A stretch of 42,984 nt of DNA, from NCBI GenBank assembly GCA_022925895.1, contig JAKSYS010000541.1, positions 1 through 42,984 of the forward strand. The letters run 5' to 3'. The notes under the pieces were generated by a model. That model had not been told where the DNA came from. It saw nothing but the letters and a program-made list of their open reading frames with translations, and did not search any database. This DNA is from Fragilaria crotonensis (Eukaryota > Bacillariophyta > Fragilariophyceae > Fragilariales > Fragilariaceae). This document shows positions 1,622-34,210 of this stretch, piece after piece; within the stretch, counting starts at the first letter, position 1, and each line of letters opens with the position of its first letter. Both the position numbers and the translations under genes were made by a program.

Positions 1622-2059
1622 TTAAAACCGCGAGATCTTGTGAAAAGCAGCTGTCCCCGTTATGGTCGCCGTGCGAAATATGATGTCATTTTTGTCTGTG
1701 TTTTTCCCCTCAGTGCTTGATATTCCAATAGATTTTTTAACCAGGCGTAGCCATCGGCGTTGCGTTGCGGCACTGCCATCAAGAAGTTTCGTCAACGGAC
1801 GCTCACATAAATGCCGGTCGTCAAACCGTAGAAGGTGCGGGTGGTTATGGTAGTGTTTGATCTCCGATATTGTTGCGGACCGGATTGAAACAGCGAGTGC
1901 GTTGGATTCGGTTGTGTGGAGAAGCTCATTTCGATGAAGCCAAGTAGCGCGAGTGTATTCGTATAGACTGATCATGGCTTTGCGAAGACGTCCGTTCACT
2001 TTGTCGTCCGAGACCGTACAGGAATCATTTATGTCGAGAGAGATGCCAGAACCCGCCAC
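1622..2059 (-). pseudogene. Frame-displaced C-terminal tail of LINE ORF2
   Basis: The ORF2 frame stops at 2029, but a neighbouring frame overlapping it by about 30 nt continues with residues typical of the C-terminal end of these retrotransposon polyproteins (for example RLRKAMISLYEYTRATWLHR, then a tail with paired Leu/Arg and RWLRLVKKSI). The shift corresponds to one missing base relative to a continuous frame, somewhere near 2029-2060. Whether ORF2 tolerates loss of this tail is unknown. It could also be a sequencing deletion. Confidence 0.65.
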
Positions 2060-5000
2060 TCACGACTGAGGAAACCTCGCAAGGCATTATCCCAACCAAT
2101 TTTGTTTTGGGAAGCGACTGCCCGGGTAATTGCTTCGCGAAGATGAGGTCCATACGAAGACATGTCAGGGCAGTAGAGAGAATCAGGCGAAGCCGTCCAG
2201 TGCTCTATTCCGGCGACAAGGCAGTACCATAGTGGATGAGGATCCTCCTTTGTTAAAACTTCTTTTCGAAATTGGGTCCAACCAGTGAGACGACCCTGAT
2301 TTGCGGGGCAGCATACGAGGTGGCGTTGATCTTCCTTGGTAGCATGACAGCATGGACAGAGAGAGAGAACAGGATCTTTGATGGTTGCCTGTTGATATCG
2401 GCGGACGCCCAGAGGTTGTTGGTCGTGCACAAATTTCATGTGGGCAATTTGTCGAGAAGGTCGTAGACGACGAAAGTGGAGCTCAAATAGCTGAAAGTCG
2501 ACTGAGTCCCATGTGAGATCATCCCATTTGCGCCTTGTTTGAATATACTGGCGAAGGTGGTACCCGTTTACATGGAAGCGGAGACTGGAGTCATACTGGC
2601 TGGTAAGTTTTCGTCCGTTGATACTGATAGAGATCTTTTGGCCTGGTTGGTGATCCAGGGTCTCACTTGATTTATGCCGCCCAGAGCGTCGATATTGAGT
2701 GGCTAATTGATCCGCCATGATATTGAGTTTAGCCGACGAAGACAATTTTTCAAGCGCAGCGTGATCGTCTTGATGAGCTTTGATCCAGGTAATGCGAATC
2801 TTTTTGCCCAATTCCTTGTAGTATTTCCAGATGATGGAGAGAATGTCGACATCCGGAGGCTGACGTCCTCGTTTTAAATGTCCCCATTGTAAGTATTTAC
2901 GAACACGCGATATTGCAGCGGTGCTGTCCACTAACCATCGAAATCGGCACCGATACTTGCACTTCCAGACACGAGAGACCAGAGCCAAACTTAAGAGTGA
3001 AGATGCGTATCCCCATAACTCGCTGCGGGTTGACGAGGCCGTGTCCCGAGATCCGTCAACGGGACCAGAGCAACGGAGAACCACCTTAGATTTCCGTGCG
3101 ACAACCCATCCAAAAGTCCCCTGTGTGCCTTGAAGGCCTCCGTCGGATGCAATTGTAACCAGCTTCTTTGACTGGAAAAAATCGACCCCTGATGGTTTGT
3201 CGGAGATCAGCTCGAGTGCCTCAACCATTCTCCTTTCGGTCCGTGGAAGATGCTTTATGTGGTCTTTGATAGAGACCGACGTATTCGTGGCCTCAGACAT
3301 CGGTGAAGAGCATGGCGTATTGGACACTCCGAGAGTTGGAGCTGAAATCCAAAAAGGGATATATCGAAGATAAGAGGATTTGATGAACCGATTCCATAAC
3401 CTACGTTGCGATGGACTTGGAAGTAGTTGCCGTGGCCATCGCGAGCATTCTTGCCACTCAGGAGGGCGTTTACCATCAAGGTAATCCAAATTAATGCGAG
3501 TTGGGGACCGGTCATCTGCCATATCCGCGAGGGAATATACTTGGAGATAGATTCGAACAAGATTGAGATCTCGTTGTTGGAGGAGAGTATATCGTTGCAA
3601 ATGGACGTCCTGCATGATCGGAAAATCGCCGCCTCGAATGGGCTGACTTCCGTCGTTGGTGATTGTAATCGTCAAGTTGTGTCGCGAGAGATACTGGCGG
3701 ACCGATGTAACCCATGTCGGTGTTAGGTATGGGATGTGGATATTGGGCTTCTCTAATATGGGTTCCGGAATCCCTGCCTCGCGTTGTGAGTATTGGAGGT
3801 TCGTTACAATCAGTCGCCCCGCTGGAGAGTCCGAGAACACGGAATCGCGCATGAATTTAATAGCTTCGATGCCCACTTCGGTTTGCACATCGTACAGATC
3901 AAGGCCGCCAAAGAGTTTTGGGCCGTGTCGAATGGCCGTGGGAAGGTGGCTATTTACATTCATCTTTTGAAGAAGGGAGGCCATGAGGTTGGTTTGAATG
4001 GGTTTCAGAGACTCTTCATTAGCAGCAATCGCTGCTAAGGAGTAGCGCATAGTAGGAACGTAGATCGTCTGGTGGAACAAAAGTGCGTCCGTCACTGTGA
4101 TGCGAGGTGATTTTAAGCGAACGGCGAATGTGTCAGCTCGAGTCTTTAACACCTGAATGTGGGCGGAGAAGTCACCGGTGGGGGATATGAAGACCCCCAG
4201 TATACGTGGAGCTTCCTCAAGATCCATTCTACGGATGGTTGTCTCTTCGGTAGAGGTGCCTTGACGAAGTTTGATTTCAGTATCAGAGGCATGGCGGTTG
4301 CGGATAACGGGACGCCCTCCTTTCCAATCCCATGTGAGGACATACCAAGAACACTTTTTAAGATTGAGCGATCCCCCTGACAGATGAAGTAGATGCTCCC
4401 ATGTTTGGGATATTTCTTGAAGACGAGAAATGAGGCCTTCCAATTCCAAAGACCCGGATCCGTCGGTAAATCCTATCGATGTGTCATCCACAAAAGCATC
4501 GACCACCCTCGAGTTGGTGATCTTCCCATCCGGAGAAACAAAATGCATTCGCTCCGGGATCAGACGCTCAAAAGTATTGAGCATAACCACAACAAGGGAC
4601 AGCCACACCGCGGGAGAAGCGCCACTGCCTTGGCCTGTGCCAAAAAGGGGCTCAAAAACAGTTCCGCTATAATTCTCGTCAGAGACTCCGTGAACCGTCT
4701 TGACCGTATACTTCATTAGCCTGAGGACATCTGCATGGGTTTGAACCGATTCCTCGGGCATGCCACATCGTCGTGCTGCCAGCATAGCCAGTGCGACAAT
4801 GATGCGGTCATAGCAAGCACTGGCGTCATTATCAAATCGAGCAAGGGTGTGCTTCAGGACCATGCAAAGATCCGTGGTGAGCTGTAATAGCATGACCGGT
4901 TCTATCGCCATGCGACCCGGCCGAGATCCATACTGGCCATCATGCAATATGTTAAGCTCGTCGGCACGTCGAATCAGTCGATGACCCCATTGCAGTTTGA

Positions 5001-7602
5001 GGAAAAAATTATAATCCGCCTCGAAGAGGTGAATAATCCGGAGCCGATGGATCTTTGGTCGTCCCGTGTCTTTCTCAATCAGGACATTTGTGGCGTTGCA
5101 CCAACGTGACACTGCGATTCCCCGAGATGTAACAATTTGAAGGAACCATGTGAGGCATTGAAGAAGCCTGGCATCTTGGATCAGAGCCTTGTAGTGACCC
5201 AAATGACGATTGGACGGCGACGTAGACGTATTTTCCGACCAGGTCTTGAATCCTTTGACAACGTCATCCGTCGTTATGTTTGTTGATATCGGACCTTTGT
5301 CAATGACGGCTGGAGGTATGCAGAACGAGGCCAGGAACTCCTTGAGTGCCAAATCATCCCCATACCATTCTGGTGGTACAACACCCCGGAGGACGTCAGT
5401 TGCGGCAGGGGAGAGGCTTGTAAACGTTAAAGCATCGAAAATGACCCCATGCCCGCAAGGTGAGTCTGCCGCAGCACGAAACGAGTCACGGTTGTAGGAC
5501 AGAAGGCGCTGCTCCATATCAGTGCGATCGATAATTGTGTCCCATACAACCTCCCTCGGTGTGGGATGATGTATCATGTTATACATTTCCGATGGGTGGG
5601 GAAGGTTGAGGTCATCCTGGTAGCGAGGAACAAGTATTTTATTCAAGGGAGTGTGGACGGTAGGTTTGACGATGTTCCCGAGGGACCGGTGTAGGCGCCG
5701 TTGATTTTCCGAGAGAATGGTGCGTCGGATGATCTTCAGCTTACGTTTGGATGAAGCCTTTGTTGACGGATCGACATCATCCTCGTAGGAGAGCATGAGA
5801 TCATGGTAAGATTGGCTCCGAAGATCGGTAGAGTTACGTTGACAGTTACGAAACGCCGTTGATGCCGCTGTGAAAAGTTGGCTTGTTTCCTCTCGTGAAA
5901 GGACCATCCGTCGCATCGGAAGTGAGAAGCTGGCGTCCTGTGCCTGTGTTTGTTTCGTCCATCTATCAAAGGTTCGTCCCCAAGTTTCACCAAAGTCAAG
6001 CTCCCTGAGACGTAAACGCCAGTACTGACGAATGATAGCGCTATTACGGAGTGTAGGAGACCACGCAAACGCTTTGGCGGTGAAAGATTTCAGAGATTTC
6101 TCCGAAGATTTCATAGCCCGTCCTTGATCCTGATCCCACTTGTTAAGACGTTCGCGTAGCTCTGCGGTGGAAAGAACTTGATGTGTTTCATACAACTCTT
6201 TCATTCGATCGAACATACGATGTTGATCGTAATACTGATTCATCATAAGATTGTATTGGTCGACATGCTCGGGATTACCTGATACCAAAGATCGTTTGTC
6301 CATGGTCTGATGGGCCGGTGGTTCGTAGTGTGGGTCGAAGATGGAAGGAAGATCAAGATCGACATACAGACCTCGATGATCAGATTGTGGGCCTTCATTG
6401 TAGGAGAGAGTGCCAGATCGTGTTGACCCGCTGGCAATCCTTTCAGTACCGAGAATGTAGTCAATCCGTCGGTTTTTTGCTCCAATATATGTGGAAGGAG
6501 CTGGATCACGAGAGTGGAGGTCAAGAAGTTCCTGTGTATGGATGAATTCTAGAAAGTGTTTATCGTGATGCAAGTCAGAGTTGGCATCAAACATAACTAG
6601 GAAAGAGTGGGAACCATTGCCACCACTGCGCAGACTGCTCATAAATCGCCCCAGGTCTGTAAAGAAAAGTCTTCTTGGGTTGGGATTGGTGATACCTTGC
6701 GATCTGTGATACTCATACTCCCGAGTAAAAGTACTTCCAAGAGGAGCAGTCTTGATAGACCCACTACAAGCGCGATAAGCAGTAATGATACTGAGTTGTG
6801 TGGATGCTTTGCCCAGAAAGGTAAGGCCACTCCATCGCCCCAATCCAGAGGGATCCCGAAGAACTTCGCCAGTCGAGAACGATACTGCTTTCCCAGTCGC
6901 CATGGTGATACAACCCCCCGATTGGAAAGATTCACGGTCCGGACACTTATCCACTGCTGCTGCAGGGGACCCAAAAGATATTCGGTTTTGGCGAAAATGT
7001 TTTCTCGCGAGTTGTTGGAAGTCCGTTCTTAAGTGGGTATGGTCCCAGCAGGTATTCGTTTCCGCGAGACCAAAAACATCGACTTGATACGCTGACATGC
7101 AGGCCATGTAGTAGCCATAATCATCACCAGAGGCTGTGTGGGTGAGGCCTTTCACATTCTGAAAAAACACCCGTGTACTTTCCGGATGTTTTTGAATGAT
7201 TGGATCACCGTACAGAAGCTCTGGAAACTCATCGACAGGGCGAAGGCGGGTCTGCCGCTTTGGACGATCCGGTGGTAAATTAAGGATACATGATATCGGG
7301 ATACCAGGGACATCGTCGGATAAGGAGACATTCCGATATGTTTGTTTTTTGTTAAGAGATGTGTTTGGGAGAGCTTGGAGGGACCTATGTGATCCCCGAG
7401 GTTGGTTCCCGTGTACGGTCGAAATGCGTACCCTGTGTATAAGATCCTGTTCGTTGGATTCAAATACGTGTCGTGTAGAGACATCGGTGTCGCAGGCATC
7501 GGCTTGTGGATGGACGTGTGCAGGGATGCCTTCCCCCATACGACGGCCATCAGAGACAATCGTGTGAGGGGAAGACAGGAGTGGTTGGCCTTCAGCCTCC
7601 AT
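2029..7602 (-). CDS. LINE ORF2: endonuclease-reverse transcriptase-RNase H polyprotein
   Basis: A 1857-residue protein that nicks target DNA and reverse-transcribes the element RNA. The AP-like endonuclease (about 143-415) has its full catalytic set: N149 in FFQN, E181 in AETN, Y276 in TAYR, D339/N341 in FDAN, D381 in RRIDYIL, and SDH at 407-409. The reverse transcriptase (about 835-1130) shows the block around D923-D925, the TGQGSGASP segment (989-997) and the FVDD catalytic motif at 1037-1040. An RNase H domain (about 1480-1640) keeps D1487, E1528, D1559, H1610 and D1631. A CCHC-type finger follows at about 1749-1764. The start ATG overlaps the ORF1 stop (TAATG), so translation probably depends on reinitiation. 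Only the last part of the tail is lost to a frame break near 2040. Confidence 0.9.
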   Translation of the reverse strand: MEAEGQPLLSSPHTIVSDGRRMGEGIPAHVHPQADACDTDVSTRHVFESNEQDLIHRVRISTVHGNQPRGSHRSLQALPNTSLNKKQTYRNVSLSDDVPGIPISCILNLPPDRPKRQTRLRPVDEFPELLYGDPIIQKHPESTRVFFQNVKGLTHTASGDDYGYYMACMSAYQVDVFGLAETNTCWDHTHLRTDFQQLARKHFRQNRISFGSPAAAVDKCPDRESFQSGGCITMATGKAVSFSTGEVLRDPSGLGRWSGLTFLGKASTQLSIITAYRACSGSIKTAPLGSTFTREYEYHRSQGITNPNPRRLFFTDLGRFMSSLRSGGNGSHSFLVMFDANSDLHHDKHFLEFIHTQELLDLHSRDPAPSTYIGAKNRRIDYILGTERIASGSTRSGTLSYNEGPQSDHRGLYVDLDLPSIFDPHYEPPAHQTMDKRSLVSGNPEHVDQYNLMMNQYYDQHRMFDRMKELYETHQVLSTAELRERLNKWDQDQGRAMKSSEKSLKSFTAKAFAWSPTLRNSAIIRQYWRLRLRELDFGETWGRTFDRWTKQTQAQDASFSLPMRRMVLSREETSQLFTAASTAFRNCQRNSTDLRSQSYHDLMLSYEDDVDPSTKASSKRKLKIIRRTILSENQRRLHRSLGNIVKPTVHTPLNKILVPRYQDDLNLPHPSEMYNMIHHPTPREVVWDTIIDRTDMEQRLLSYNRDSFRAAADSPCGHGVIFDALTFTSLSPAATDVLRGVVPPEWYGDDLALKEFLASFCIPPAVIDKGPISTNITTDDVVKGFKTWSENTSTSPSNRHLGHYKALIQDARLLQCLTWFLQIVTSRGIAVSRWCNATNVLIEKDTGRPKIHRLRIIHLFEADYNFFLKLQWGHRLIRRADELNILHDGQYGSRPGRMAIEPVMLLQLTTDLCMVLKHTLARFDNDASACYDRIIVALAMLAARRCGMPEESVQTHADVLRLMKYTVKTVHGVSDENYSGTVFEPLFGTGQGSGASPAVWLSLVVVMLNTFERLIPERMHFVSPDGKITNSRVVDAFVDDTSIGFTDGSGSLELEGLISRLQEISQTWEHLLHLSGGSLNLKKCSWYVLTWDWKGGRPVIRNRHASDTEIKLRQGTSTEETTIRRMDLEEAPRILGVFISPTGDFSAHIQVLKTRADTFAVRLKSPRITVTDALLFHQTIYVPTMRYSLAAIAANEESLKPIQTNLMASLLQKMNVNSHLPTAIRHGPKLFGGLDLYDVQTEVGIEAIKFMRDSVFSDSPAGRLIVTNLQYSQREAGIPEPILEKPNIHIPYLTPTWVTSVRQYLSRHNLTITITNDGSQPIRGGDFPIMQDVHLQRYTLLQQRDLNLVRIYLQVYSLADMADDRSPTRINLDYLDGKRPPEWQECSRWPRQLLPSPSQRRLWNRFIKSSYLRYIPFWISAPTLGVSNTPCSSPMSEATNTSVSIKDHIKHLPRTERRMVEALELISDKPSGVDFFQSKKLVTIASDGGLQGTQGTFGWVVARKSKVVLRCSGPVDGSRDTASSTRSELWGYASSLLSLALVSRVWKCKYRCRFRWLVDSTAAISRVRKYLQWGHLKRGRQPPDVDILSIIWKYYKELGKKIRITWIKAHQDDHAALEKLSSSAKLNIMADQLATQYRRSGRHKSSETLDHQPGQKISISINGRKLTSQYDSSLRFHVNGYHLRQYIQTRRKWDDLTWDSVDFQLFELHFRRLRPSRQIAHMKFVHDQQPLGVRRYQQATIKDPVLSLCPCCHATKEDQRHLVCCPANQGRLTGWTQFRKEVLTKEDPHPLWYCLVAGIEHWTASPDSLYCPDMSSYGPHLREAITRAVASQNKIGWDNALRGFLSREWRVLASLST

Positions 7603-7604
7603 TA
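7600..7604 (-). promoter_or_regulatory. TAATG stop-start overlap coupling ORF1 to ORF2
   Basis: On the minus strand the ORF1 stop TAA (7604-7602) shares its last A with the ORF2 start ATG (7602-7600). UAAUG overlaps are an established translational-coupling device in some non-LTR retrotransposons (SART1 is the studied case). Here it gives the only start in a plausible position for ORF2. Confidence 0.75.
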
Positions 7605-10600
7605 ACCGTTGTCGCCCCCGTCTGGAGATGGTGGGTCGCTGGACGTGGAGCCGTCAGTCAGCTTGTATTGATCTTCCAGATCGGGCAGGGCGAGGGTGGT
7701 GGGACTAGTTTCAACAGTTTCCATGTCGGTAGGTTCCATGAGCATGGAGGTTGCCTGTGTCAACAGGGAGAGCGGAGGGAGGGGGAGATGCATCTGCTGC
7801 GGAGCAGGGTAGAGTGGAGGGGTTGATCCAAAGGACGATGATGACTTGTCATCCTCTTGAGTCTCGTACTCCAGAGTCAACGCATCCATGGTGTCGGGCA
7901 TAGATCGTTTTAGATGTTTTTTGGGAGGGGGTTGTGCGTGCTGAGATCCGCTTGACGTGGAGTTTACCGAGCGGCCCCCCTGATGCTGCTGGTTAGTGTC
8001 ATGTATGGGGGCAAGTAGCGTCCCCGCGGTCACAGGGGACTCCGAGGCATGGCTTATGACCGGTAGATGGTGAGCGAAGCTTGTGTCGCCTTGTATTGGA
8101 GATTGTGTGGAGAATACAAATGCCTCCTGTGAGACAGGATTGTGGGGCTTGCTTGGTGCCGCACTAGCGATTTGTTGCATCATTTCCATCATTTGGGTCA
8201 TTTGGGATTGAACAGCTGTGAGGGCGTTGTTCGTGTCCACATGGTATTGCATTGATTGGACCGCTTTAGCCTCCAGGTTATCCAGACGGGGATCCAGGTG
8301 TTTGAGTTTTGTGTCAATATCAAGTAGTTGCGCTTTGGTGGTCTGGAGATCTGAGTTTCGTTGCTCCTGAACACGCTGTAGTTTACTTTCCAATTCCATG
8401 TATGCCTGGTCGTTCGAAGAAGTTGCCGTGGATAAGAGGGAATGCGTTGTCGAAAAATCCTCTTGCGGGTTTGTCCCTGCTGGTTTCACTTTTCGACGAG
8501 ATGCACGTGCCTTTCGCGAGGGAGGGGGGGGAGGTGCCGAGTCGCTCTCATCGGACGACTGTGAGAGATGGGAGGTGACGGAGGGTGCTGCTGGAGGAGT
8601 CGGTTTCCGTTGGGCTGTGTTTATTCCACCCTGTCGTACGGAAGGTGATACGTGATTCCAGACATTGTCAGATGACATTTTCTCAAGTAGATCGAGTGCT
8701 TCTTGGACCGAGGGATCAATTTGAATAATACCGGGAAAACCCAATATGGTTTGACGAAACCGTGCCTCACGTCTATCCACAGGATTGAGACGTTGTCTGT
8801 ATTTGTCAACTTCGAGAAGAATCTCCTGGTAATGTTGACGAGGTACCAAAAGGGTAGCAACTTGATCATAGCCTCCGTTTACGATGTCACACCGGGCGTT
8901 CATGCCTGTAGCTGGTAGTGTTAGGGTGAGTGCCCACTCTCGAGATGTCCTTTTCCTAAGATCACCGTTGTCATAGAATTCATCCCGGAGGCTGTCCAGG
9001 TCATCAATCCATGGTGTCAGAGTGATAGATCGAAGCGATTTCATGTAGTCATCATGGATCTTGAAATATTGTGATATTTTTTCCGGAGAAAGGTTACCCA
9101 GGAGAAGTCGTGGGAGGTAAAGAGCGCTGCCGCTTCCCTTTAGAAGATTTGAGAGTGCTTTAGACAGAGGCTCCACGTGGTGCTCTCCGCATTGGACAGC
9201 CAGATGATGGATCAATTGATTGGTAGGAGTACGCTTCAAATGAATGATGTCAAAAAATGGGATATTTTCAGGCAACAGAACAAGAAGACTCTTAAGATAT
9301 TTAATCCGTTGAGTAAGGTTTGGTGCTTTCATAAGGATATATCCGGCAATTACAAGATTGCCGCTTGTACTGCAGGAGTTGGATACGGTCGCCCAAACCT
9401 TGTGCTTTCTCATGGCATCCTTTGTCTCCAATTTTGTCAACCATTTTGCAGGGGTCTTGGTGGAAAAGCCAAAGCGGACCGCAAAAATGAACGTCTTCGT
9501 TGCCCGAATGTACGTTACCTTGGGAGAAATATACTCCAGCAAAACCTCCTCTGACATAGAATGCGGCGATTTCCAGTTTGAGAGGGAGACACTCCCCCAT
9601 GGATAGAATGCTCCCATATCATTGCCAAATAAATCGAGAAGCATAGTCAAAGCGGCCGTTGTCCAGTTTCTTGGATTGTCTTTATACGAAAGCTGTGCCG
9701 TAGGTGTCCAACGGATTGTAATGCGTTGAGTGCCATCGTTCATTTTTATCTGCTTCGCTGAAGCGCGTGAATCAGGATAAATGGTGGATGTTTCCGAGTA
9801 TATGGACGCATCTGTTGGTGGAATCTCCTCAGGAAAGGAAGCGGTCGCAGTAGGCGGTGTCGCAAGCTGAAGTGATACTTGTGGAGGCACGAGTGGAGGA
9901 ACTGGAGGGTTCCATGCCGGTTTTCGATGATCCTCACGTGGGGGGGATTGTTGTTGGGGAGTCAGTGAACTCGGAGTCTGCTTTGTTTTCAGAATACCCA
10001 CTCGGCGGAGAGTAGTCAAGGAGGACAACGGGGACAAGGATGCAGAAAGTGGAGCAGCTGCAGGAGGTCTGATACGATGCTCGGGTTCATTGAGAGTAAC
10101 TTGTTTCTTCACACCCACACGTGGGGGTTTTGTCCTACCCACAGTAGTCCAGTCATCACCAGCGTCGTCGCCGTCCGCGCTCAATGCTTGGGCGCTTGGC
10201 CAGGTCGAGTCAAGTGTATTGATCTTCAGGAAGGAAGGCTTATGCGCAAGTAGGTAAGGTTGTGCGACCTGAGTCGCCCACGCTTCGAGTTCGAGTGGAA
10301 TGTCGATGTGGCGATCAACGTAACACATGAAATTGTACCAGACAATTTTATGACGATGCAGCAGGTTGATAGGTTTCTGGTTCCACTCAGCATCAAACTG
10401 AGCACCATCGAGGTGGGAAAAGAAGCCAACGATAATGTATCGGTTCCATTGAAGCGGTGATGCTGTCAAGCGGAAGTTTTCTAGAAAGAATGGACGTGGA
10501 GTCGAAAGTCCTTCGTTTGAAACGATTTGTGTGGCTGCTTTGGGCGGATCCAGCCATGCATCGATTCCGAAAGAGAACAGAGGATTGTCGGGATCATGAT

Positions 10601-10646
10601 AACCCAGGGGGATTGCGGTAGACGGGGGACCAACGGCCTCGGTCAT
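7602..10646 (-). CDS. LINE ORF1: coiled-coil RNA-binding-type protein
   Basis: ORF1 of the retrotransposon, presumed to bind element RNA and form the ribonucleoprotein. The frame is open up to 10847, but that part lies outside the inferred 5' end of the element (10792). The first sensible ATG is at 10646 (MTEAVGPPSTA), giving about 1014 residues. Visible features are Pro-rich low-complexity stretches near 170-290 and in the last 250 residues, a basic cluster (SRKARASRRKVKP), and then a long coiled coil with heptad-like spacing (from about YMELESKLQRVQEQ to MMQQI). I see no CCHC knuckle and no clear RRM, so nucleic-acid binding is inferred from position only. It overlaps ORF2 by one base. Confidence 0.75.
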   Translation of the reverse strand: MTEAVGPPSTAIPLGYHDPDNPLFSFGIDAWLDPPKAATQIVSNEGLSTPRPFFLENFRLTASPLQWNRYIIVGFFSHLDGAQFDAEWNQKPINLLHRHKIVWYNFMCYVDRHIDIPLELEAWATQVAQPYLLAHKPSFLKINTLDSTWPSAQALSADGDDAGDDWTTVGRTKPPRVGVKKQVTLNEPEHRIRPPAAAPLSASLSPLSSLTTLRRVGILKTKQTPSSLTPQQQSPPREDHRKPAWNPPVPPLVPPQVSLQLATPPTATASFPEEIPPTDASIYSETSTIYPDSRASAKQIKMNDGTQRITIRWTPTAQLSYKDNPRNWTTAALTMLLDLFGNDMGAFYPWGSVSLSNWKSPHSMSEEVLLEYISPKVTYIRATKTFIFAVRFGFSTKTPAKWLTKLETKDAMRKHKVWATVSNSCSTSGNLVIAGYILMKAPNLTQRIKYLKSLLVLLPENIPFFDIIHLKRTPTNQLIHHLAVQCGEHHVEPLSKALSNLLKGSGSALYLPRLLLGNLSPEKISQYFKIHDDYMKSLRSITLTPWIDDLDSLRDEFYDNGDLRKRTSREWALTLTLPATGMNARCDIVNGGYDQVATLLVPRQHYQEILLEVDKYRQRLNPVDRREARFRQTILGFPGIIQIDPSVQEALDLLEKMSSDNVWNHVSPSVRQGGINTAQRKPTPPAAPSVTSHLSQSSDESDSAPPPPPSRKARASRRKVKPAGTNPQEDFSTTHSLLSTATSSNDQAYMELESKLQRVQEQRNSDLQTTKAQLLDIDTKLKHLDPRLDNLEAKAVQSMQYHVDTNNALTAVQSQMTQMMEMMQQIASAAPSKPHNPVSQEAFVFSTQSPIQGDTSFAHHLPVISHASESPVTAGTLLAPIHDTNQQHQGGRSVNSTSSGSQHAQPPPKKHLKRSMPDTMDALTLEYETQEDDKSSSSFGSTPPLYPAPQQMHLPLPPLSLLTQATSMLMEPTDMETVETSPTTLALPDLEDQYKLTDGSTSSDPPSPDGGDNG

Positions 10647-10792
10647 GGTGGATAGAGCACGCGACAACTTCCTACTAAACTTGCGTAAAAACGGACGACG
10701 GACGGTTCGATATTTACGAATACGTATGTAAAAAATTGTGTTATTGATGAAGATATGATTAATCGACTTCTTGTTTTCTGCAATTTTCTTAA

Positions 10793-10806
10793 CATAGTAC
10801 CTGGAC
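10793..10806. repeat. Target site duplication of the LINE, copy 2
   Basis: CATAGTACCTGGAC, identical to 1403-1416, abuts the 5' end of the minus-strand retrotransposon. It is followed by AG, which completes the inverted repeat of the DNA transposon. Confidence 0.65.
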
Positions 10807-11091
10807 AGATGAGTCACTAGTACGGCAAATTGAGCCCTTTTCATCAATCCCTTGTCTCATCACTCTTCTAATGCACTAAGATATTCATTGACAATAGGTC
10901 AGCTAGGAGTGTGCGTTGCAAGAAATGCAATATCTTTCTTTTTGATCTTAAATTTTCCGTTTCTTCGCATGAACGAATTTTCGTGGGACTTCGTAGGTAA
11001 AGTCCCGGTTGCCAAAAATTCTCATTTGAGGGTGCTTCCGAAGTGCATAAATCAGTCCATCGACGATTAAACACATCCTCAATGCCCCTGC

Positions 11092-17639: not shown

Positions 17640-19298
17640 ATGGTGAAACAAGCCATACCTGTTAAGTGGATTTTCAAGATCAAGGAGGAACAAGACGGCA
17701 CACTACGGTACAAGAGCAGAATCGTACTGAAGGGCTACGTGATGGTACCTGGTGTTGACTACACAGAGTCATTTTCACCTGTGGCAACGGACACAACGGT
17801 CAGACTCGCAATTACTATCGCGCTGTACAGACAAGACGAAGGCTGGACGATTGAGATGATCGATATTGAAGCAGCGTTCTTAAATGCGGAACTTGAAGAT
17901 GACAAGCCAGTATTTGCTGAGTGGCCGGAAGGTATTGTTGAATTGGGATATATAACGGAAGACGAATTGAGACGTTACTGTATTATGCTGACACGTCCTA
18001 TGTATGGAGGAGTGGATGTCCCAAGACTTTTTATGAAGACACTCCGTAAGTACTTGACGAAGCACATGAATATGATTCAGAGTCTGGTTGATCCGTGCAT
18101 GTACTACTGGAAAGACACGAAAGGGCGTATGACCCTGATGGCAGTTGTGCATGTGGATGACGTAATTTTGGTTGGATCGAAGAAGGCGATTGAAGAATTC
18201 AAGACTAAGCTTAAGGAACGATTCAATATATCTGATCTCGGAAAGTTGAAGAAGCACTTGGGAGTATGGTACGATTGGAGCGTGGACGAAAACGGAAATG
18301 TCATTATCATTGCGAAGATGAACAAACTTGAAGATGAAATCGTGAAACCTACGAGAAGATTACTGGCAAGAAGTCAAGACATACGACACGCCCGGATACC
18401 CGAACAAGTACCTGTAAAAACGAAGGACCTACGGTTAATATGACGGATTACAGGTCAATGGTTGGAAAGATCATGTATTTAACGACGAAACTGGCACCGG
18501 ATTTGGCCAACGCAGCTCGGGAACTGGCACAGCACCTATCGAACCCAGGTGAGGATCACTGGAAGGCATTGGACAGAATGGTCGGTCATATCAAGCTACG
18601 ACCGTACGAGGACTCACGTACAGAAGACCAGGAACTACGACCTATTTCTATGGTGGATTCCGACTATGCCAAGAATACGGACAATCGCAGAGTATATCTT
18701 CGGGACTGCATACGATAGGTGGAACGCTGGTCCATTGGGAATCAAAGACCCAACACGTCGTTACACTATCGAGTACGAAGCGGAGTATATCAGTTTGGCG
18801 AGAGGTGCATGCGAGAACAAGTTTATTATGATGTTACTTGACGAAGGCATACGAAGACCGGATGAGAAACGTCATATGGGAAAAGTGTACGAGGACAATC
18901 TTGGAGCTATTTATTTGGTCAAAAATCAACATGTCGGAGCCAGAACGAAGCATATCGATGTACGTGCTCATTTTATCCGTGAACTGGAAGATAACGGTTA
19001 TTTGAACGTGCAGTTTATTCGATCGGAAGAGAATGCAGCAGACATATTGAACAAGAACTGTCCTGAAAAATTACATACGAAACACGCGAAGAACATACGA
19101 GATGGAACCCTGGATTGTTGGAGGGAGGATGTCGAGGATAGTAGGCTACTGGATAAGTCCAGTACCGGTGAGACAGTGAATACTATCGTTGGCGAAGCTG
19201 AGAGAGATTCGACGTTTGGACGGAATGTCAGATTCGAGTCAGACGTGAACTCGGAATTGAACACACGACTGAACTGGGATAAAGAATTCGAGAATTAA
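17640..19298 (+). pseudogene. Copia-type reverse transcriptase and RNase H, 5'-truncated and frame broken
   Basis: The first frame (17640-18443) is the Ty1/copia reverse transcriptase. KWIFKIKEEQDGTLRYKSRIV, VDYTESFSPVA, IDIEAAFLNAEL and the catalytic VHVDDVILVG are all visible. Translation then continues in a second frame from 18440 (DYRSMVGKIMYLTTK), a third over about 18685-18780 (GLHTIGGTLVHWESKTQHV), and the 18549 frame (EAEYISLARGA, VYEDNLGAIYLV, TKHIDVRAHFIRE, ENAADILNKN), which are the RNase H blocks of copia. All three breaks are one missing base. Gag, protease and integrase are absent upstream, so this is the 3' half of an element, followed by a putative LTR. Confidence 0.82.
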
Positions 19299-26037: not shown

Positions 26038-28007
26038 ATGTTGGCATCATCAGGCCGCATCATGCTTCACAGAGCTTCCGCCATTGGCGGCAGGTTGGCA
26101 CTTCGCGCCTTGGTAACTCATGCCTTTGCATCTGGTTTTCCTGGGCCTAACAAGGTGAGAAATGAAAGAAGCAACCACGGATGTTCATGACTGTCCTTCC
26201 CTAACACAAAGGTCCGATAATACAGCTCGCTTCAACCCCTATCACTCGTCGTTTCCAATCTGCATTGGTTCAAGAGGAGTTGGAACCCCGAGATGCCTAT
26301 AGGGTAGCACGAACGTTCGAGGGGACCGATGCTTGTCTGAAAGCCGGCATTTCGCCACTTGGCATAAGTGGTCCTTCTATCGTCTACCGAAATTTGTCCT
26401 TCCAAGATTTGTTTGAACATGAGCAGGCCAACAAAGAAGGCTTCGTTGCAGCAGCTGACTGTGGCCCTACCTTCACTGTCGACACAGGCAAATTCACCGG
26501 CCGTTCACCGAAGGACAAGTGGATCGTGAAGAACATCGGATCGGAGTCCGACGCCAACATAGACTGGGGTGAAGTCAACCAGCCCACGCGACCTGAGGTA
26601 TTTGACAAACTCTATGAAAAGGCCGTCGCTCACTTTAATACAAGAGACACCGCATACGTCTTCGACGGCTACTGTGGTGCAAGCCCTATGTCGCGAAAGA
26701 AGGTTCGCTTCATCCACGAAATGGCTTGGCAGCAGCACTTTGTGACCAATATGTTTATTCGTCCCGAAACGGAGAGCGAGTTGGAAGACTTTGATCCAGA
26801 CTTTACGATCATCAACTGCTGCAGTCAAGTTGCTGAGGACTGGAAGGAACTGGGCTTGCACAGCGATACAGCGGTCGTCTTCAACGTGGAAAAGAAAGTT
26901 GCCGTTATCTTCGGTACTTGGTACGGAGGGGAGAATAAAAAGGGAATTTTCTCCCTCATGAATTACTGGCTGCCGATGCAGGGCCATTTATCTATGCACT
27001 GCAGCGCCAATGTTGGTAGGGATGGAGATGTCGCCCTCTTCTTTGGGCTCAGTGGTACTGGCAAAACCACATTGAGCGCCGATCCTCATCGGGCCTTGAT
27101 AGGCGACGATGAGCACGGATGGGACGAACACGGTATTTTCAACTTCGAAGGCGGCTGCTATGCAAAGACAATCAACTTGTCAGAAAGGACAGAACCTGAC
27201 ATCTACCATGCCATCAAAACAGATGCTCTCTTGGAGAACGTAAAATTGGTCGACAAGGAAGGTAAAAAGGTTCCCGACTACTTTGACGTATCGAAGACTG
27301 AGAATGGCCGCGTTTCATATCCGATTTTTCATATCCCGAATTATGTAAGTGCCTTCAATCTTCGAGTTTGCTGAAAATTGGACATTTCCTGATTGCCTCC
27401 TTTCGTTTAGCACAAACCACAAATGGCTGGGCACCCAAACAACATCATCTTCTTGAGTTGTGATGCCTTTGGAGTCCTGCCACCTGTGGCCAAACTCAGT
27501 CCACAACAGGCCATGTATCACTTTCTTTCTGGTTACACTGCCAAGGTTGCGGGGACGGAACGAGGCATCAAGGAACCGGCTGCCACTTTCTCTGCCTGTT
27601 TTGGAGCTGCGTTCATGACTCTGTGCCCAACTCGGTACGCTGACTTGTTACACGACAAGCTCGAAGAACATGGAACATCTGCGTATCTAGTGAACAGTGG
27701 CTGGTCCGGCGGACCATATGGCATCGGAAATCGTATGTCTATCAATACGACGCGCGCCTGCATTGACGCTATCCTAGACGGCAGCATCAATGACGCTGAA
27801 ATGGTTAAGGATCCAATCTTTGGGTTCGAAGTCCCGAAGGCTCTTCACGACGTTGATTCAGATCTCTTGAATCCGAAGTCAACCTGGCCCGACGAGGCAG
27901 CATATGATGCAGCGGCCAAGAACCTGGCTGAAATGTACATCTCCAATTTCACAAAGTATGAGGGAGCGGGATCGGTCGATTACACACAATTCGGACCAAA
28001 GCTTTGA
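26038..28007 (+). CDS. PEPCK: ATP-dependent phosphoenolpyruvate carboxykinase, three exons, mitochondrial-type presequence
   Basis: Converts oxaloacetate and ATP to phosphoenolpyruvate, CO2 and ADP. Exons 26038-26154, 26226-27344 and 27411-28007 (introns 71 and 66 nt, gtgaga...acag and gtaagt...ttag, both phase 0) give 610 residues. Residues 1-52 form a presequence rich in Arg, Ala and Ser without acidic residues ([14 protein letters not shown]...TPITRRFQS), which suggests mitochondrial import. The catalytic body is complete: [10 protein letters not shown] at about 129-138 (substrate site), the P-loop GLSGTGKTT at 313-321, the metal/kinase-2 motif IGDDEHGW at 331-338, then [12 protein letters not shown]. 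It is the ATP-type of bacteria, plants and diatoms, not the animal GTP-type. The frame has no damage. Intron 1 sits inside the presequence, near the boundary between targeting and mature parts. Localisation is inferred. Confidence 0.95.
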
Positions 28008-28751
28008 ACAGCGACTTGCTGAAGTTGCGAGGGGAAATTGATCTGGAAAGGCTGTCAATAAGCTGCATATGAAATCCAGCAGTGAACATCATGCTGTTCA
28101 TTTTGAAGTATACTAGTAGGATATAGGTATTCAAACTTTGTCAGATGTGGCTTTGGTCTTTGGTGTAGGCGGAGCGCGGAGTATTGCATAGGAAAAGATG
28201 GTCGGGAGTGCCAACACTTACTGATCATGGGTCGACCTCATCGTATCGAACGTTGTCCTTTCTCTTCGAGTCTTCGAGAGGCCTCCTCGAGTCTTGGCAT
28301 CTTCAGTGGGATAGAAAAAATTGTTTCGACCTCATCGTATCGAACGTTGTCCTTTCTCTTCGAGTCTTCGAGAGGCCTCCTCGAGTCTTGGCATCTTCAG
28401 TGGGATAGAAAAAATTGTTTGGAACATACAGTCATACAGTATCATATTGCATAGTAGTACTTGCGTACCTCTAATACTCCAAGTACTGCTAACTGGTACT
28501 GGTAGCATGAAATACCCGGTACGTGTATGACATACTGGCGGTCGCTGGTATGTTTACTGGATACTGGAGTCACTCCCACACCGTGACCATCAGAAAGCGT
28601 CTGTCTCCCTGTCCAACCCGGCAGGTTTCCGTTCTCCACCAGTGTATCTGCCCTTTTATTTCTTTATTAGAACAAGTGCTCCCACCCATCACGACCTCAC
28701 CCATACATCCAATTGTTGTGACAAGAACGCCAACTCTGGGTGAAACCCAAC
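28008..28751. other. Intergenic region PEPCK to rRNA methyltransferase
   Basis: The PEPCK 3' flank, a 94-bp tandem duplication (listed separately), and a GTAC cluster at 28455-28530 with five GTAC in about 95 bp. The short frames within the duplication are just repeats of each other. Confidence 0.5.
28232..28419. repeat. 94-bp perfect tandem duplication
   Basis: Copies at 28232-28325 and 28326-28419 both begin TCGACCTCATCGTATCGAAC and end in GATAGAAAAAATTGTT. I see no difference between them. Each copy contains an inner TCTTCGAGTCTTCGAGAGG and CCTCCTCGAGTCTT echo. A recent replication-slippage event or an assembly artefact are both possible. Confidence 0.9.
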
Positions 28752-30457
28752 ATGACTGTGACGAATGTGAGAAAATGGTTCATCGTCGTGCTACTCTTCG
28801 CTTCATCGCATGCCTTTTCGACTGCCCCAAATCAAAGAACAAATACGGTTCGTCGACCTGTTACAAACGACAACGTCGACCTTGAGCAAGCAAGCAACCG
28901 GTACATTGCTACTTGCATTCCTGGTCTAGCCCCTGTCCTTGCCGATGAGCTGGAGGCCTTGGGTGCTTTTGATATAAACCTATCCGGAAATTCGGCAGTT
29001 GGATTTCGAGGATCACCAGAGGTTGGCCTCAAATCACTGCTTCGTCTGAGGACGGCCCACCGACTCATGGAGTTGGTGTCCACCTCGGAAGAGATGGTAT
29101 CAACGAGGGATGACATTCATCACTTCATCAAGGAGACTCTGGACGTTAAAGAGTTATTGGGAGATGGTAAGGGTGGGCTCTTGACGATCAGTGTGGCGGT
29201 TGTCATGAATGGAAGGATCCCTCCCGATATCAATCATTCACACTACACAGCTCTGAGTATTAAAAATGCTCTTTGTGACACGGTTCGTGACTTGAGAGGC
29301 GACCGCCCGGATGTGGATGTGGACAATGCCGACGTACCTTTAGTTGCCATCCTCCGAGGGTTCGGGAAGGTGCCGAGATTTCGTTATACCGGTGCCTTCA
29401 CCCACCTGGTAGTCTTCACCGCCGCGGGTATCGTGGAGGAAGTGCCATGCATAAGGCTGCCATGAAAGAGAGCATGGCCGCAGGTTTGTTGTTAAAGGCA
29501 GGATGGCAAGAGAAGTGCATAGCGGCAAGGACGACTGGGGAATCGCTAGTTTTGCTTGACCCGATGGGTGGCAGTGGTTCCCTTGTTGTGGAGGCAGCCA
29601 TGATAGCTGCCAATCTATCACCGGGGTTGATGAGAATCAAGTGTGGCATGTCGGGCTTCCAAGTTCCTCCTGTGCTGCGATGGAAATCTGGTCGTGGTAT
29701 GATGGATACATGGAAAGTATTCCTACAGGAAGCAACTGAAGAGGCAAGGGAAGGTCTCCAATGGATTTCAAGTTCAGGCCAAATCGAATTGATGGTGAAT
29801 GATATCCACGCAGGGGCATTAGAGATTTGTGATGCGTCCCTCCGACAAGCCGGTCTGGCAAACACGGTCTCCCTTCGTCAAGGGGACTGCAAAGAATTAG
29901 ATTTGAATAATCAGAAGTGTTTGATTGTGACCAATCCTCCCTGGGGTGTCCGCTTGACTGATGACATGGAAGAGAGTTGGGAATCATTGAGGTCACTTTT
30001 GAGACGTTGCGCACCTGGGACTGAAGCGTGGGTCTTGTCGGGGAACAAGGATGCCACGAAACATCTTGGACTCCGACGATCTCAGAGCATGGTTCTCAAG
30101 ACTGCTGATCAAGACCTACGATGGATCCAATACATCATCATGGACAAGTCAAGTCAAGTTGTTGGAGCAGGAGCCTACGACGGAGATGACGTCGAGATGA
30201 CCAATTTTCCTCGGGAGCGAAATCATCACAGTGATCTTCGTCAGTCGGAGAAATGGTCGCAAACTCGCCAAATCGAGAAGAGGCCTGATAATCGTCCTGA
30301 GAATAGGAGGTCAGCACAAAGTGGAGCGGCTCGTTCCGGTTACAAGGCGCGCTCGGTAGCGATGGGTCGAGCCTCTCCTCTACCTAAGCGAAAGGGCGAT
30401 ACTGATCCCATGACGGAGAAGGATCGAGAAGCAAGAAAGAACTCTTGGAGTTTGTGA
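28752..30457 (+). CDS. rlmL: Plastid-targeted RlmL-type rRNA guanine-N2 methyltransferase, one frame break
   Basis: THUMP/UPF0020 methyltransferase family, which methylates 23S rRNA guanine N2 using S-adenosylmethionine. The ATG at 28752 begins a signal peptide (KWFIVVLLFASSHA) followed at once by FSTAP, the diatom plastid-import pattern in which Phe follows the cleavage site. Next come the RlmL N-terminal fold (YIATCIPGLAPVLADELEAL) and a THUMP part (LRGDRPDVDVDNADVPL). The frame then breaks near 29350-29370 with one base missing; the displaced frame reads ISLYRCL...SLHRRGYRGG just before MHKAAMKES at 29447. The second frame has DPMGGSGSLVVEAA (SAM site, residues 38-51) and NPPWG (163-167) and a basic Arg/Lys tail. 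The continuous homology across the break indicates one gene. A plastid ribosome target is inferred. Confidence 0.85.
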
Positions 30458-31337: not shown

Positions 31338-32287
31338 ATGTTATCCAAGGTCGCTGTCAGAGTCGGAAAGTTGGGAAAGCAGGTTTTCTCCACTCGACTG
31401 TACTCCGCGTGGTCTCAGTCTCTCTCTTTTTCTTCCCCTGAAGCTGATTTCTGTCACAGTGCAATCATTCAGGAATTTGAAATATCTTCTCCGTCTTGGT
31501 CTCAATCTCTTTCTTTTGTCTCCCCCGAAGCCGACTTTGCATCCGTAACCGAAACTACGCAAGTCAGTCTTTCCGAGGGTTACCAATGGTCAGGACAATT
31601 GTCATTCACATCCCCCGAAGCCGACTTTTCGGCTGAACCGGCAGCAGCGGACTGGCAGTGGTCCGAACAGTACTCTTTTGCATCACCCGAATCCGATTTT
31701 CAAGCTGCTTCGCTGCCTGAACCTCATCGAGCATTGGATGCGGAATGTGCGTCGGTACCTCAAACCTCGCCGATTCTGGGACTGGCCATATCCAGCCCTG
31801 AATCGGCTATAGGTTTCATGCACGCGCATCATTTGCTCAACCCCCAAGATTTACACAAGCTTCACGAAGTACGCGAAGAACACCGGGGTGAGCATCCTCT
31901 ACCACGAACGTTGGAAGACGCTCTGAACAACTCCGATCCTCGCGCCATTGTTGTTACGGAAGCTCAGGCCCCCTTCCGTATTGTTGATGTGAATGATGCA
32001 TGGGTAGATTTGTGTGGATACTCAGAGAAGAGGTCCGAAATCACTCTTTGAAGATGATTCAGGGTCCCGCTACCCGCAATACCGCCATCAAAACAATGAT
32101 GAATCAACTACTAGCTGGGCAAGAGACCTCATCTCTCCTCACTAACTACACCAAAACTGGACGCAAGTTCTACAACCGCGTGCGCGCCGGACCTCTGTTC
32201 AATGCAAATGAGACGGTCACCCACTTCGTCGGAATTCTTGAGGAAGTGACCGAACAACCAGAGTACTTCCAGGTGGCGCGTCTTTAA
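31338..32287 (+). CDS. PAS/LOV-like protein 1 with four WS-SPEADF repeats, one frame break
   Basis: Paralogue of the gene at 33164. The ATG at 31338 is chosen because the protein then begins like its paralogue: a 24-residue basic segment without acids (MLSKVAVRVGKLGK) that resembles a mitochondrial presequence. Four 14-residue motifs follow at 25-38, 54-67, 84-97 and 108-121 (WSQSLSFSSPEADF, WSQSLSFVSPEADF, WSGQLSFTSPEADF, WSEQYSFASPESDF), then the linker LAISSPESAIG-MHAHHLL and a PAS domain from about residue 202 (AIVVTEAQAPFRIVDVNDAW). The frame ends early at 32051; the rest of the PAS domain (EEVRNHSLKMIQGPAT, NYTKTGRKFYN, THFVGILEEV) continues in the frame ending at 32287. One base is missing near 32030. 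As in the paralogue, the LOV cysteine and glutamine positions are Leu. The break may be a sequencing deletion. Confidence 0.8.
31410..31700 (+). repeat. Four coding copies of a 14-residue motif
   Basis: Encodes four motifs of consensus W[ST]xx[LFY]S[FY]xSPE[AS]DF, spaced 24-30 residues start to start. The spacers vary in sequence, so selection is on the motif. SPEAD contains an SP pair that could be phosphorylated (inference). Confidence 0.85.
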
Positions 32288-33163
32288 TCATTAGAGCACC
32301 CCACCAGGTAAATGGAATCTTGCTAGGGAAAGGCTGGAGTGGAAGTAACAATGTTAGGTAACGAAATGGGGTGCATACTCTCGATTATGCCGCGTAAATG
32401 GTCGGTCATCAGCGCTCGTCTAGATGGGCGCAAGGGTGATCGCTGATCGCATGTGTGAAGAAAAATGAGGCGCATAGGTGACCGAGGAAAGTCCTCTAAT
32501 AGTATGCTACACTCGAAGTACTAGGTTGGCAAATCATTCTACTCCCTGTATGCGAAACAACATCAAGCGAATGTTCGCAAGGCAATTTTAGTATTTTCAA
32601 TCATGCCGCTTGCTGTGCCATCAACACTGTTCTCTGAGTCGGAAGTCGCAACACTGGTGCCTGATGAGAAACTTGTTTTATAGTTGATTGTTGCAAGTAG
32701 GTTGACTATTGACTACTGCTCCGTTACTGCGTTCCATGATGGCCCGGCAATTTCTTACCCTGTATCATCATCTGTCCGACACCTTTATTTGCCGGACTCT
32801 ACCGTTGAAAAATTGTTTACTCCGACTCCGGGTCCGGAGTACCAGTACTGTAGTAGTGCGTAGTGCCATACAGTATGAACGAAACCATGATGTTGGAGTT
32901 CTCATTAGCTTGAGCATCACAGCATCACCTGCGTCTGGTTTGTAAGTGCAGATTTAAATTGTCGTCATGAACGTCATCAAGCTGAATTTGCAGCCAATGA
33001 AAAGGTTTCATCGTACGCACGTTTCGAAGTTTTTCCTCCCCCTGGAGGGGAGCCCTTGTTCTTCACATTTTGACCAGCGGTTTGGTGCTTCTGCGAAAGA
33101 GCACACATTCAGTCCATCAATTTTTCCTTCTCTCACTTTCTTATCAATTTCAAGCCGCCGACC
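32288..33163. other. Spacer between the two PAS paralogues
   Basis: No gene supported. GTAC words occur near 32517 and 32837-32845. The last 50 bases before the second PAS start are pyrimidine-rich (TTTTTCCTTCTCTCACTTTC), probably leader or initiator sequence. Confidence 0.5.
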
Positions 33164-34210
33164 ATGATATCCGCTGTAGCCAAAAGTGCTTTGAGGAATG
33201 GAAAGAAAGCTTCAGGCTTTCGCTCGTTTACTGCGTGGTCAGGCGAATTGTCCTTCTCGTCACCGGAAGCTGATTTTTACCACACTACCATACATCGAGA
33301 GGGGGAATCACCCGCCCAAGCTTGGTCTCGGTCTTTCTCCTATGCGTCACCCGAAGCTGACTTTTCCTATGTCGTGACCAGCGGCGCCTCCATCTCTAGC
33401 TCGCAACATAAAGAATGGTCTGGAAACTTCTCCTTCGTCTCACCAGAGGCTGATGTTACCTCTTACCCTGACGCCGATACTGAATGGGAATGGACTCAAC
33501 AGTTGACATTTGCCTCGCCTGAATCTGACTTCCAAAATGCCTCCTCTGAACTCGCGTTCCAGGATGAATGGTCCGAACGTCTCTCCTTTGCGTCCCCTGA
33601 ATCAGATTTCCAAATGCAAGCCTTGTTCGTTGCCTCGCCTACTCAAGAAATTATCCAAGACTATTCTTCTGAACTAAACGCTTCTGAAGTAATGCGATTG
33701 GCTATCTCCAGCCCAGAATCAGCTTTGGGATCGCTGCATGCCCATCACCTTCTCCGAGCTGATCAGCTGTATCAACTCCATGAATCGAGAAACGAGAGAA
33801 TTTCCAACCAAGAACCTCTTCCTCAGACCCTCCACGACGCTCTATCCGACGAGCATCGCGCCATTGTCATTACTGAAGCTCATGCGCCCTTCCGCATCGT
33901 AGATGTCAATGATGCCTGGGTTGGCCTCTGTGGCTACACTAAGGAAGAAGCCCGCCAGCGTTCTCTAGCAATGCTTCATGGTCCTGAAACCAACGTGGCA
34001 GCCCTCCGAGCCATGGAGGAGCAGTTGGTCCATGCCGCCGATAAGGAGGCTACAGCACACGTTGTGAACTACACCAAGGTCGGACGCAAATTTTACAATC
34101 AATTGAGAGCTGGACCATTGTATGATGCCAACGGATCGATTACTCATTTTGTGGGTGTCCTTCAAGAAGTGTTTCAAGAACCGGAATACTTCCATGTCGC
34201 TCATGCGTAG
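33164..34210 (+). CDS. PAS/LOV-like protein 2 with five WS-SPEADF repeats
   Basis: An intact 348-residue protein that I do not recognise as a named family. Residues 1-24 are basic and Ser/Ala-rich with no acids before Glu28 (MISAVAKSALRNGKKASGFR), presequence-like. Five motifs W[ST]xx[LF][ST][FY]xSPE[AS]D[FV] lie at 25-38, 54-67, 85-98, 110-123 and 136-149. A conserved linker RLAISSPESALGSLHAHHLL (about 178-197) echoes the SPES core. The PAS domain is at about 232-336. It aligns by eye with LOV domains: LHGPETN for LQGPDTD, VNYTKVGRKFYN for LNYRKDGTPFWN, and HFVGVL for FIGVQ. The two flavin-contact Asn (N302, N312) are kept, but the adduct Cys is L268 and the signalling Gln is L333. A sensor or scaffold without LOV photochemistry is the best inference. 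The neighbour at 31338 is a tandem paralogue. Confidence 0.88.
   Translation: MISAVAKSALRNGKKASGFRSFTAWSGELSFSSPEADFYHTTIHREGESPAQAWSRSFSYASPEADFSYVVTSGASISSSQHKEWSGNFSFVSPEADVTSYPDADTEWEWTQQLTFASPESDFQNASSELAFQDEWSERLSFASPESDFQMQALFVASPTQEIIQDYSSELNASEVMRLAISSPESALGSLHAHHLLRADQLYQLHESRNERISNQEPLPQTLHDALSDEHRAIVITEAHAPFRIVDVNDAWVGLCGYTKEEARQRSLAMLHGPETNVAALRAMEEQLVHAADKEATAHVVNYTKVGRKFYNQLRAGPLYDANGSITHFVGVLQEVFQEPEYFHVAHA
33236..33610 (+). repeat. Five coding copies of a 14-residue motif
   Basis: Encodes motif copies WSGELSFSSPEADF, WSRSFSYASPEADF, WSGNFSFVSPEADV, WTQQLTFASPESDF and WSERLSFASPESDF with unrelated spacers of 11-17 residues. Invariant positions are W1, S9, P10, E11 and D13. 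Confidence 0.88.

Follow-up and report, generated by a model that had tools for sequence, protein, structure and literature searches.

What does a domain built like a blue-light receptor do once both residues of its photochemistry have been replaced? The question is raised by two tandem genes of the diatom Fragilaria crotonensis, located on contig JAKSYS010000541.1 (C494 in our numbering), the whole of which was analysed and is called the window here (42,984 bases, from a genome of 62.1 Mb in 881 contigs). Both genes encode proteins with a C-terminal PAS domain related to the LOV domains of photoreceptors, in which Leu stands at the position of the adduct-forming Cys and also at the position of the signal-relaying Gln. 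We consider it fairly probable that these proteins are mitochondrial, and that each carries a light-independent, LOV-derived PAS module for binding either partners or a small ligand; a series of conserved motifs (SPEADF motifs) would serve as docking or phosphorylation segments.

The intact gene of the pair, copy 2 (33164-34210, +), is one unbroken open reading frame (ORF) of 348 amino acids. Its product starts with a presequence-like N-terminus, followed by five SPEADF motifs, a helical linker, and the C-terminal LOV-like PAS domain, which together with the tail covers residues 231-348 (33854-34207, +). Copy 1 spans 31338-32287 and is divided between two frames: a first part of 229 amino acids (31338-32024, +) contains a presequence-like N-terminus, four SPEADF motifs, the linker, and the start of the PAS domain, and a second part (32027-32287, +) contains the rest of the domain and the tail. 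Each part is 53% identical to copy 2. Two bases (32025-32026) occupy the place of one codon of copy 2, so copy 1 is one base short; an intron at the break is ruled out, since the protein alignment has space for one codon only. Synonymous differences between the copies (pS) are at or near saturation, being 0.75 before the break and 0.80 after it, and nonsynonymous differences (pN) are 0.31 and 0.27, respectively. Because pN is low where pS is saturated, amino-acid constraint acted on the part behind the break during most of its history, and the break is either recent or an assembly error. A DNA search of the assembly did not find a second copy of the locus from another haplotype.

In copy 2, alignment and codon check place Leu268 (CTA; 33965-33967, +) at the LOV adduct-Cys position and Leu333 (CTT; 34160-34162, +) at the signal-Gln position. 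Both Asn that face the flavin ring in LOV domains are kept by alignment, the first as Asn302 (34067-34069, +) and the second as Asn312 (34097-34099, +). The initial annotation of this stretch had named these four residues, and the ORF and the alignment agree with it. It had also reported the same double change in both copies; copy 1 indeed has Leu at the Cys position (TTG at 32048) and at the Gln position (CTT at 32237), and so does a third paralogue that lies outside the window, on contig C405 (G000:C405:119827-120291). The three use different codons for this first Leu, at the Cys position (CTA in copy 2, TTG in copy 1, CTC in C405). The third paralogue, and low pN at saturated pS, favour the stable role that had been proposed in place of decay. 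When a Gln at another aligned position was looked for, Q334, next to L333, was ruled out as a displaced Gln, since copy 1 has Glu and C405 has Arg there. The three Leu/Leu proteins also have in common Cys256 (33929-33931), in LCGY/LCGW, at a column where most LOV rows and the bZIP-PAS rows described below carry Thr (LTGY); it was considered as a relocated adduct Cys and is 12 residues away from the adduct position.

The domain is more degenerate than a LOV domain that lacks two residues. Glu285 (34016-34018, +) is aligned with the second member of the Arg pair through which LOV domains contact the flavin phosphate; at the two positions copy 2, copy 1 and C405 have A/K/N and E/M/M. As far as the alignment can tell, the side of the pocket facing the flavin ring survives through its Asn, and the ribityl-phosphate side is gone. 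Two published filters (PMC9098866, PMC4682037) jointly name ten LOV signature residues, of which each window copy keeps 3/10 and C405 4/10, compared with 9-10 in the four aureochromes of this genome and 7 in the bZIP-PAS protein C548. With seven of ten signature residues changed in copy 2 and both phosphate-Arg positions lost, the earlier statement that the sequence follows LOV photosensors closely was too strong. Exactly these three paralogues carry the Leu/Leu pair among the 31 rows of the first tree alignment, two of which have a gap in the Gln column. By itself, a Leu in the Cys column does not point to a special function, because all 11 non-LOV PAS rows of this alignment have Leu, Ile or Phe there; the second alignment places several of these rows differently.

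By profile and tree, the domain nonetheless appears to belong on the LOV side of PAS domains. Pfam PAS_9 matches residues 243-335 of copy 2 (E=3.1e-12) and the second part of copy 1 (ORF 32000-32287; E=3.5e-8), so the PAS assignment is not a chance result. LOV models outscore the generic PAS box, in line with the LOV relationship that had been claimed, and a NifL model matches as well (29 bits). Structure prediction gives a PAS fold, and the closest solved proteins by sequence and by structure are LOV domains, although PAS domains of KCNH channels tie with the best LOV matches in structural score. The region between presequence and PAS is not confidently folded in the predicted model. Besides the fold and the two ring Asn, the window domains have the GP.T and NY.K.G..F.N segments in common with the LOV photoreceptors phototropin, YtvA and aureochrome. 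They differ from these in both Leu, in the lost phosphate Arg, and in a GRNCRFLQ core that is mostly replaced. Furthermore, the window proteins have no recognised output domain: the Pfam scan gave no bZIP match at E<=10, unlike in aureochrome, where bZIP stands beside the LOV domain, and it matched no channel family.

Partial loss of LOV residues has been described before. Cluster 11 of the PAS domains, the LOV cluster, has the Cys in 57% and holds the KCNH (EAG/ERG) PAS domains, in which flavin-binding polar residues are replaced (PMC10468136) and the cavities are without ligand (PMC3598652). These resemble the window domains in that respect and in the tied score; they are animal channel domains, however, with no closer sequence relation shown. 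Approximately 70 Cys-less LOV-like proteins, such as the LOV* of BAT, were collected with a filter of at least 9 of the other signature residues (PMC4682037), and approximately 350 Gln-less LOV-deltaQ proteins with a filter of 8 of 9 (PMC9098866). Each of these lacks one photochemical residue, whereas the window domains lack both, and since both surveys required almost the full set of the remaining signature residues, of which copy 2 keeps so few, neither should contain Leu/Leu domains. No Leu/Leu LOV-like family was found among the literature matches listed, which is no proof of its absence in print. The earlier remark that no such family is described is thus true only in part, as KCNH, Cys-less and Gln-less domains have been described. 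In a Cys-less Vivid, Gln to Leu leaves photoreduction intact and fully blocks light-driven dimerisation (PMC4682037). Given this result, the Leu/Leu pair and the lost phosphate Arg, the natural domain should be light-blind.

The same evidence bears on an alternative in which the domain is a Cys-less flavin redox sensor that binds flavin mononucleotide (FMN), flavin adenine dinucleotide (FAD) or riboflavin via the two Asn, and reports the mitochondrial flavin redox state in the manner of BAT-LOV* or NifL-type PAS domains. All three Leu/Leu domains retain N302 and N312, the NifL model matches, and BAT-LOV*, in which Pro replaces the Cys, is a flavin-binding domain whose shape changes when it is reduced (PMC4682037). 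BAT, however, still has the Gln by which N5 protonation is read (PMC4682037), and the Leu/Leu domains do not; both phosphate-Arg positions are lost, and Gln to Leu stopped dimerisation in Cys-less Vivid. We regard such a sensor as unlikely.

Whether LOV chemistry was lost or was never present depends on the relatives of the domain. C405 shows 40% identity over the PAS domain; its gene model has three exons with GT-AG borders, in frame, and its product has a presequence-like start and a short linker alignable with that of the window proteins. Since it shares the Leu/Leu pair, the three form a small family. In the second tree, from which the trait columns were left out, they form a clade (support 97/80) to which C548 and C167 attach with their PAS domains at 100/97; this five-member group stands beside LOV inside a clade of 96/88, with LOV alone at 84/84 and not starred. 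The first tree, with other rows, recovered the inner groups at 91/80 and 94/89; the outer clade of LOV, Leu/Leu and bZIP-PAS domains was not recovered in it and had a p value of 0.26 in the approximately unbiased test (p-AU) when constrained. The stronger supports of the second tree come after a choice of rows: it left out C70, C472, C108a, C339a and C339b, and added ten plasmid rows. In addition, C167 is a long-branch row (3.07) with a PAS_9 match of 16.4 bits, under the cut-off, and one of the LOV reference rows, 8pky, comes from an engineered variant that is Cys-less and has its Gln changed. The LOV-branch placement given by the initial annotation therefore stands by profile as a position on the LOV side, but the tree puts the clade next to LOV, with bZIP-PAS domains.

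All five clade members are without the Gln (Leu, Leu, Leu, Thr and Tyr, the Tyr of C167 being read across a joined exon), and four are without the Cys. The bZIP-PAS proteins further share with the window domains a Trp that replaces Phe in VN..W. They differ in carrying a bZIP match, below the Pfam cut-off (23.3 bits in C548, 19.9 bits in C167), where the window proteins have presequence-like N-termini and SPEADF motifs instead. In C167/C273, Leu occupies the Cys column and Tyr, read over a GT-AG intron, the Gln column, and both ring Asn are lost. C548 (G000:C548:394051-394320) has Thr at the Gln position and, in contrast to the window domains, keeps the Cys, preceded by one additional residue (GKASCRILQG); in its CRxLQG core the Cys, Arg, Leu and Gln are all present. 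With the Cys and most of the core still there in C548, it would be simpler to assume that a LOV-like ancestor lost these residues, an account that rests on this single sequence. An ordinary PAS domain without LOV chemistry at any time in its past, which shares just the NY-x-K-x-G-x-x-F-x-N pattern and has lost nothing, would agree with the Leu, Ile or Phe of 11/11 non-LOV PAS rows at the Cys column, and with a clade beside rather than inside LOV. It leaves aside the 7/10 signature residues of the sister C548, including those four of the core, and the preference of the profiles for LOV models, and we find it quite improbable.

Outside the genome, the Leu/Leu combination was not met among the sequences covered. 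Viral contigs gave 22 pattern matches with the three-sequence alignment as query and 2 matches with the full protein, none of them confirmed. GTDB genomes gave 39 matches, of which one was confirmed, a Maricaulis PAS domain with Pro at the Cys position. On plasmids, 147 records matched, and the 10 examined among the 30 matches listed have Cys (9) or Pro (1) and no Leu at the Cys position, and Gln (9) or Leu (1, Rhizobium) at the Gln position. Within the genome, one aureochrome matches the solved LOV domain of Phaeodactylum tricornutum aureochrome 1a at E=1.1e-72. An aureochrome-type bZIP-LOV protein on C698 (G000:C698:13023-13322; bZIP_2 35 bits, PAS_9 69 bits) keeps the adduct Cys, with Ile in place of the signal Gln (FIGVIVKV). 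A PAS repeat array is found at G000:C108:835010-837172, and the one repeat examined is closest to a phytochrome PAS domain in the PDB. Near-identical PAS stretches on the contig pairs C167/C273, C339/C363 and C243/C14 are haplotypes or assembly duplicates.

The N-termini, which had gone unmentioned in the initial annotation, suggest where the proteins work. A basic, acid-free, amphipathic start is the pattern of mitochondrial presequences, and diatom plastid precursors require a signal peptide. Residues 1-26 of copy 2 (33164-33241, +) and of copy 1 (31338-31415, +) each have five Lys/Arg and no Asp/Glu in the first 24, and their hydrophobic moment is matched by 4.7% and 3% of shuffles, respectively. 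Both contain R-x-[FY]-[ST], which we take to be a presequence cleavage pattern. The N-terminus of C405 has three Lys/Arg and no Asp/Glu, and in none of the three do the first 30 residues include a hydrophobic signal stretch. Between presequence and PAS lie nine conserved 15-residue WSxxxSFxSPE[AS]DF motifs, five in copy 2 (33236-33613, +; starts 25-31 residues apart) and four in copy 1 (31410-31703, +; starts 24-30 residues apart). With residues 1-169 as a genome query, the best candidates scored gave 2 matches at E<=10, both in the window, and nothing related to a SPEADF-type motif was among the literature matches listed.

Taken together, we favour a PAS domain that descends from LOV, or is sister to it, and in which LOV function is gone. 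The proteins would enter mitochondria via a cleavable presequence. The domain would form no flavin adduct, pass on no LOV-type light signal, and probably bind no flavin nucleotide. It may instead make light-independent interactions through the PAS beta-sheet and a helical N-cap or, alternatively, hold a small ligand, perhaps through the two kept Asn, with the SPEADF repeats gathering partners as docking or phosphorylation segments. A more specific version, which we consider rather unlikely, is a conserved diatom class of LOV-descended mitochondrial PAS proteins, without light sensing and flavin-nucleotide binding, that senses another heterocycle (riboflavin, lumichrome, pterin or similar) or the mitochondrial redox state via the kept Asn, the SPEADF repeats gathering output partners.

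Several points weigh against the reading we favour. Both ring Asn are retained in all three Leu/Leu domains, and a flavin-free domain need not keep them. Light sensing is not excluded by the Gln position alone, since YF1, NmPAL and AsLOV2 in which only the Gln is changed to Leu still transmit most of their light signal (PMC9098866). The high-confidence PAS model relies on LOV rows in its alignment; the model from window rows only has a mean predicted local distance difference test (pLDDT) score of 52.5, while its elements still come in the same order and it still matches LOV domains. The paralogue comparison covers one genome, that of this diatom. Finally, the N-termini appear to fit a mitochondrial presequence and not a diatom plastid precursor by charge pattern in all three proteins but by amphipathicity in two, that of C405 being not amphipathic beyond shuffles (68% are as high). 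This last point also speaks for light-blind PAS proteins of the cytosol or another non-mitochondrial place; with acid-free starts of 3-5 Arg/Lys in all three diverged paralogues and the presumed cleavage pattern in both window copies, we hold that location to be very unlikely. A functionless, degenerating gene pair, with copy 1 already a pseudogene by its one-base frame break, is scarcely credible given an intact copy 2, pN of 0.27-0.31 against saturated pS on either side of the break, and a Leu retained through synonymous codon change in three paralogues.

The rest of the window contains other features. Two long ORFs at 2029-10847 (-), the first with a weak RNase H match below the Pfam cut-off and the second with no match, are perhaps a retroelement of the long interspersed element (LINE) type, and a Copia-type reverse transcriptase fragment lies at 17640-18443 (+; RVT_2 E=1e-37). 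Upstream of the PAS genes are an ATP-dependent phosphoenolpyruvate carboxykinase in two stretches (26265-28007, +) and an RlmL-type methyltransferase across two overlapping frames (28740-30457, +), with RlmL_1st and THUMP in 28740-29465 and UPF0020 in 29447-30457.

If the favoured reading is true, a blue-light receptor fold has been reused for a light-independent and probably mitochondrial task in a photosynthetic cell, with a parallel in animal KCNH channels. The two published surveys, one of Cys-less and one of Gln-less LOV domains, would probably overlook such domains, as they required nearly all other signature residues. The three paralogues and the bZIP-PAS domains would then provide a defined set for tracing how photochemistry was lost.
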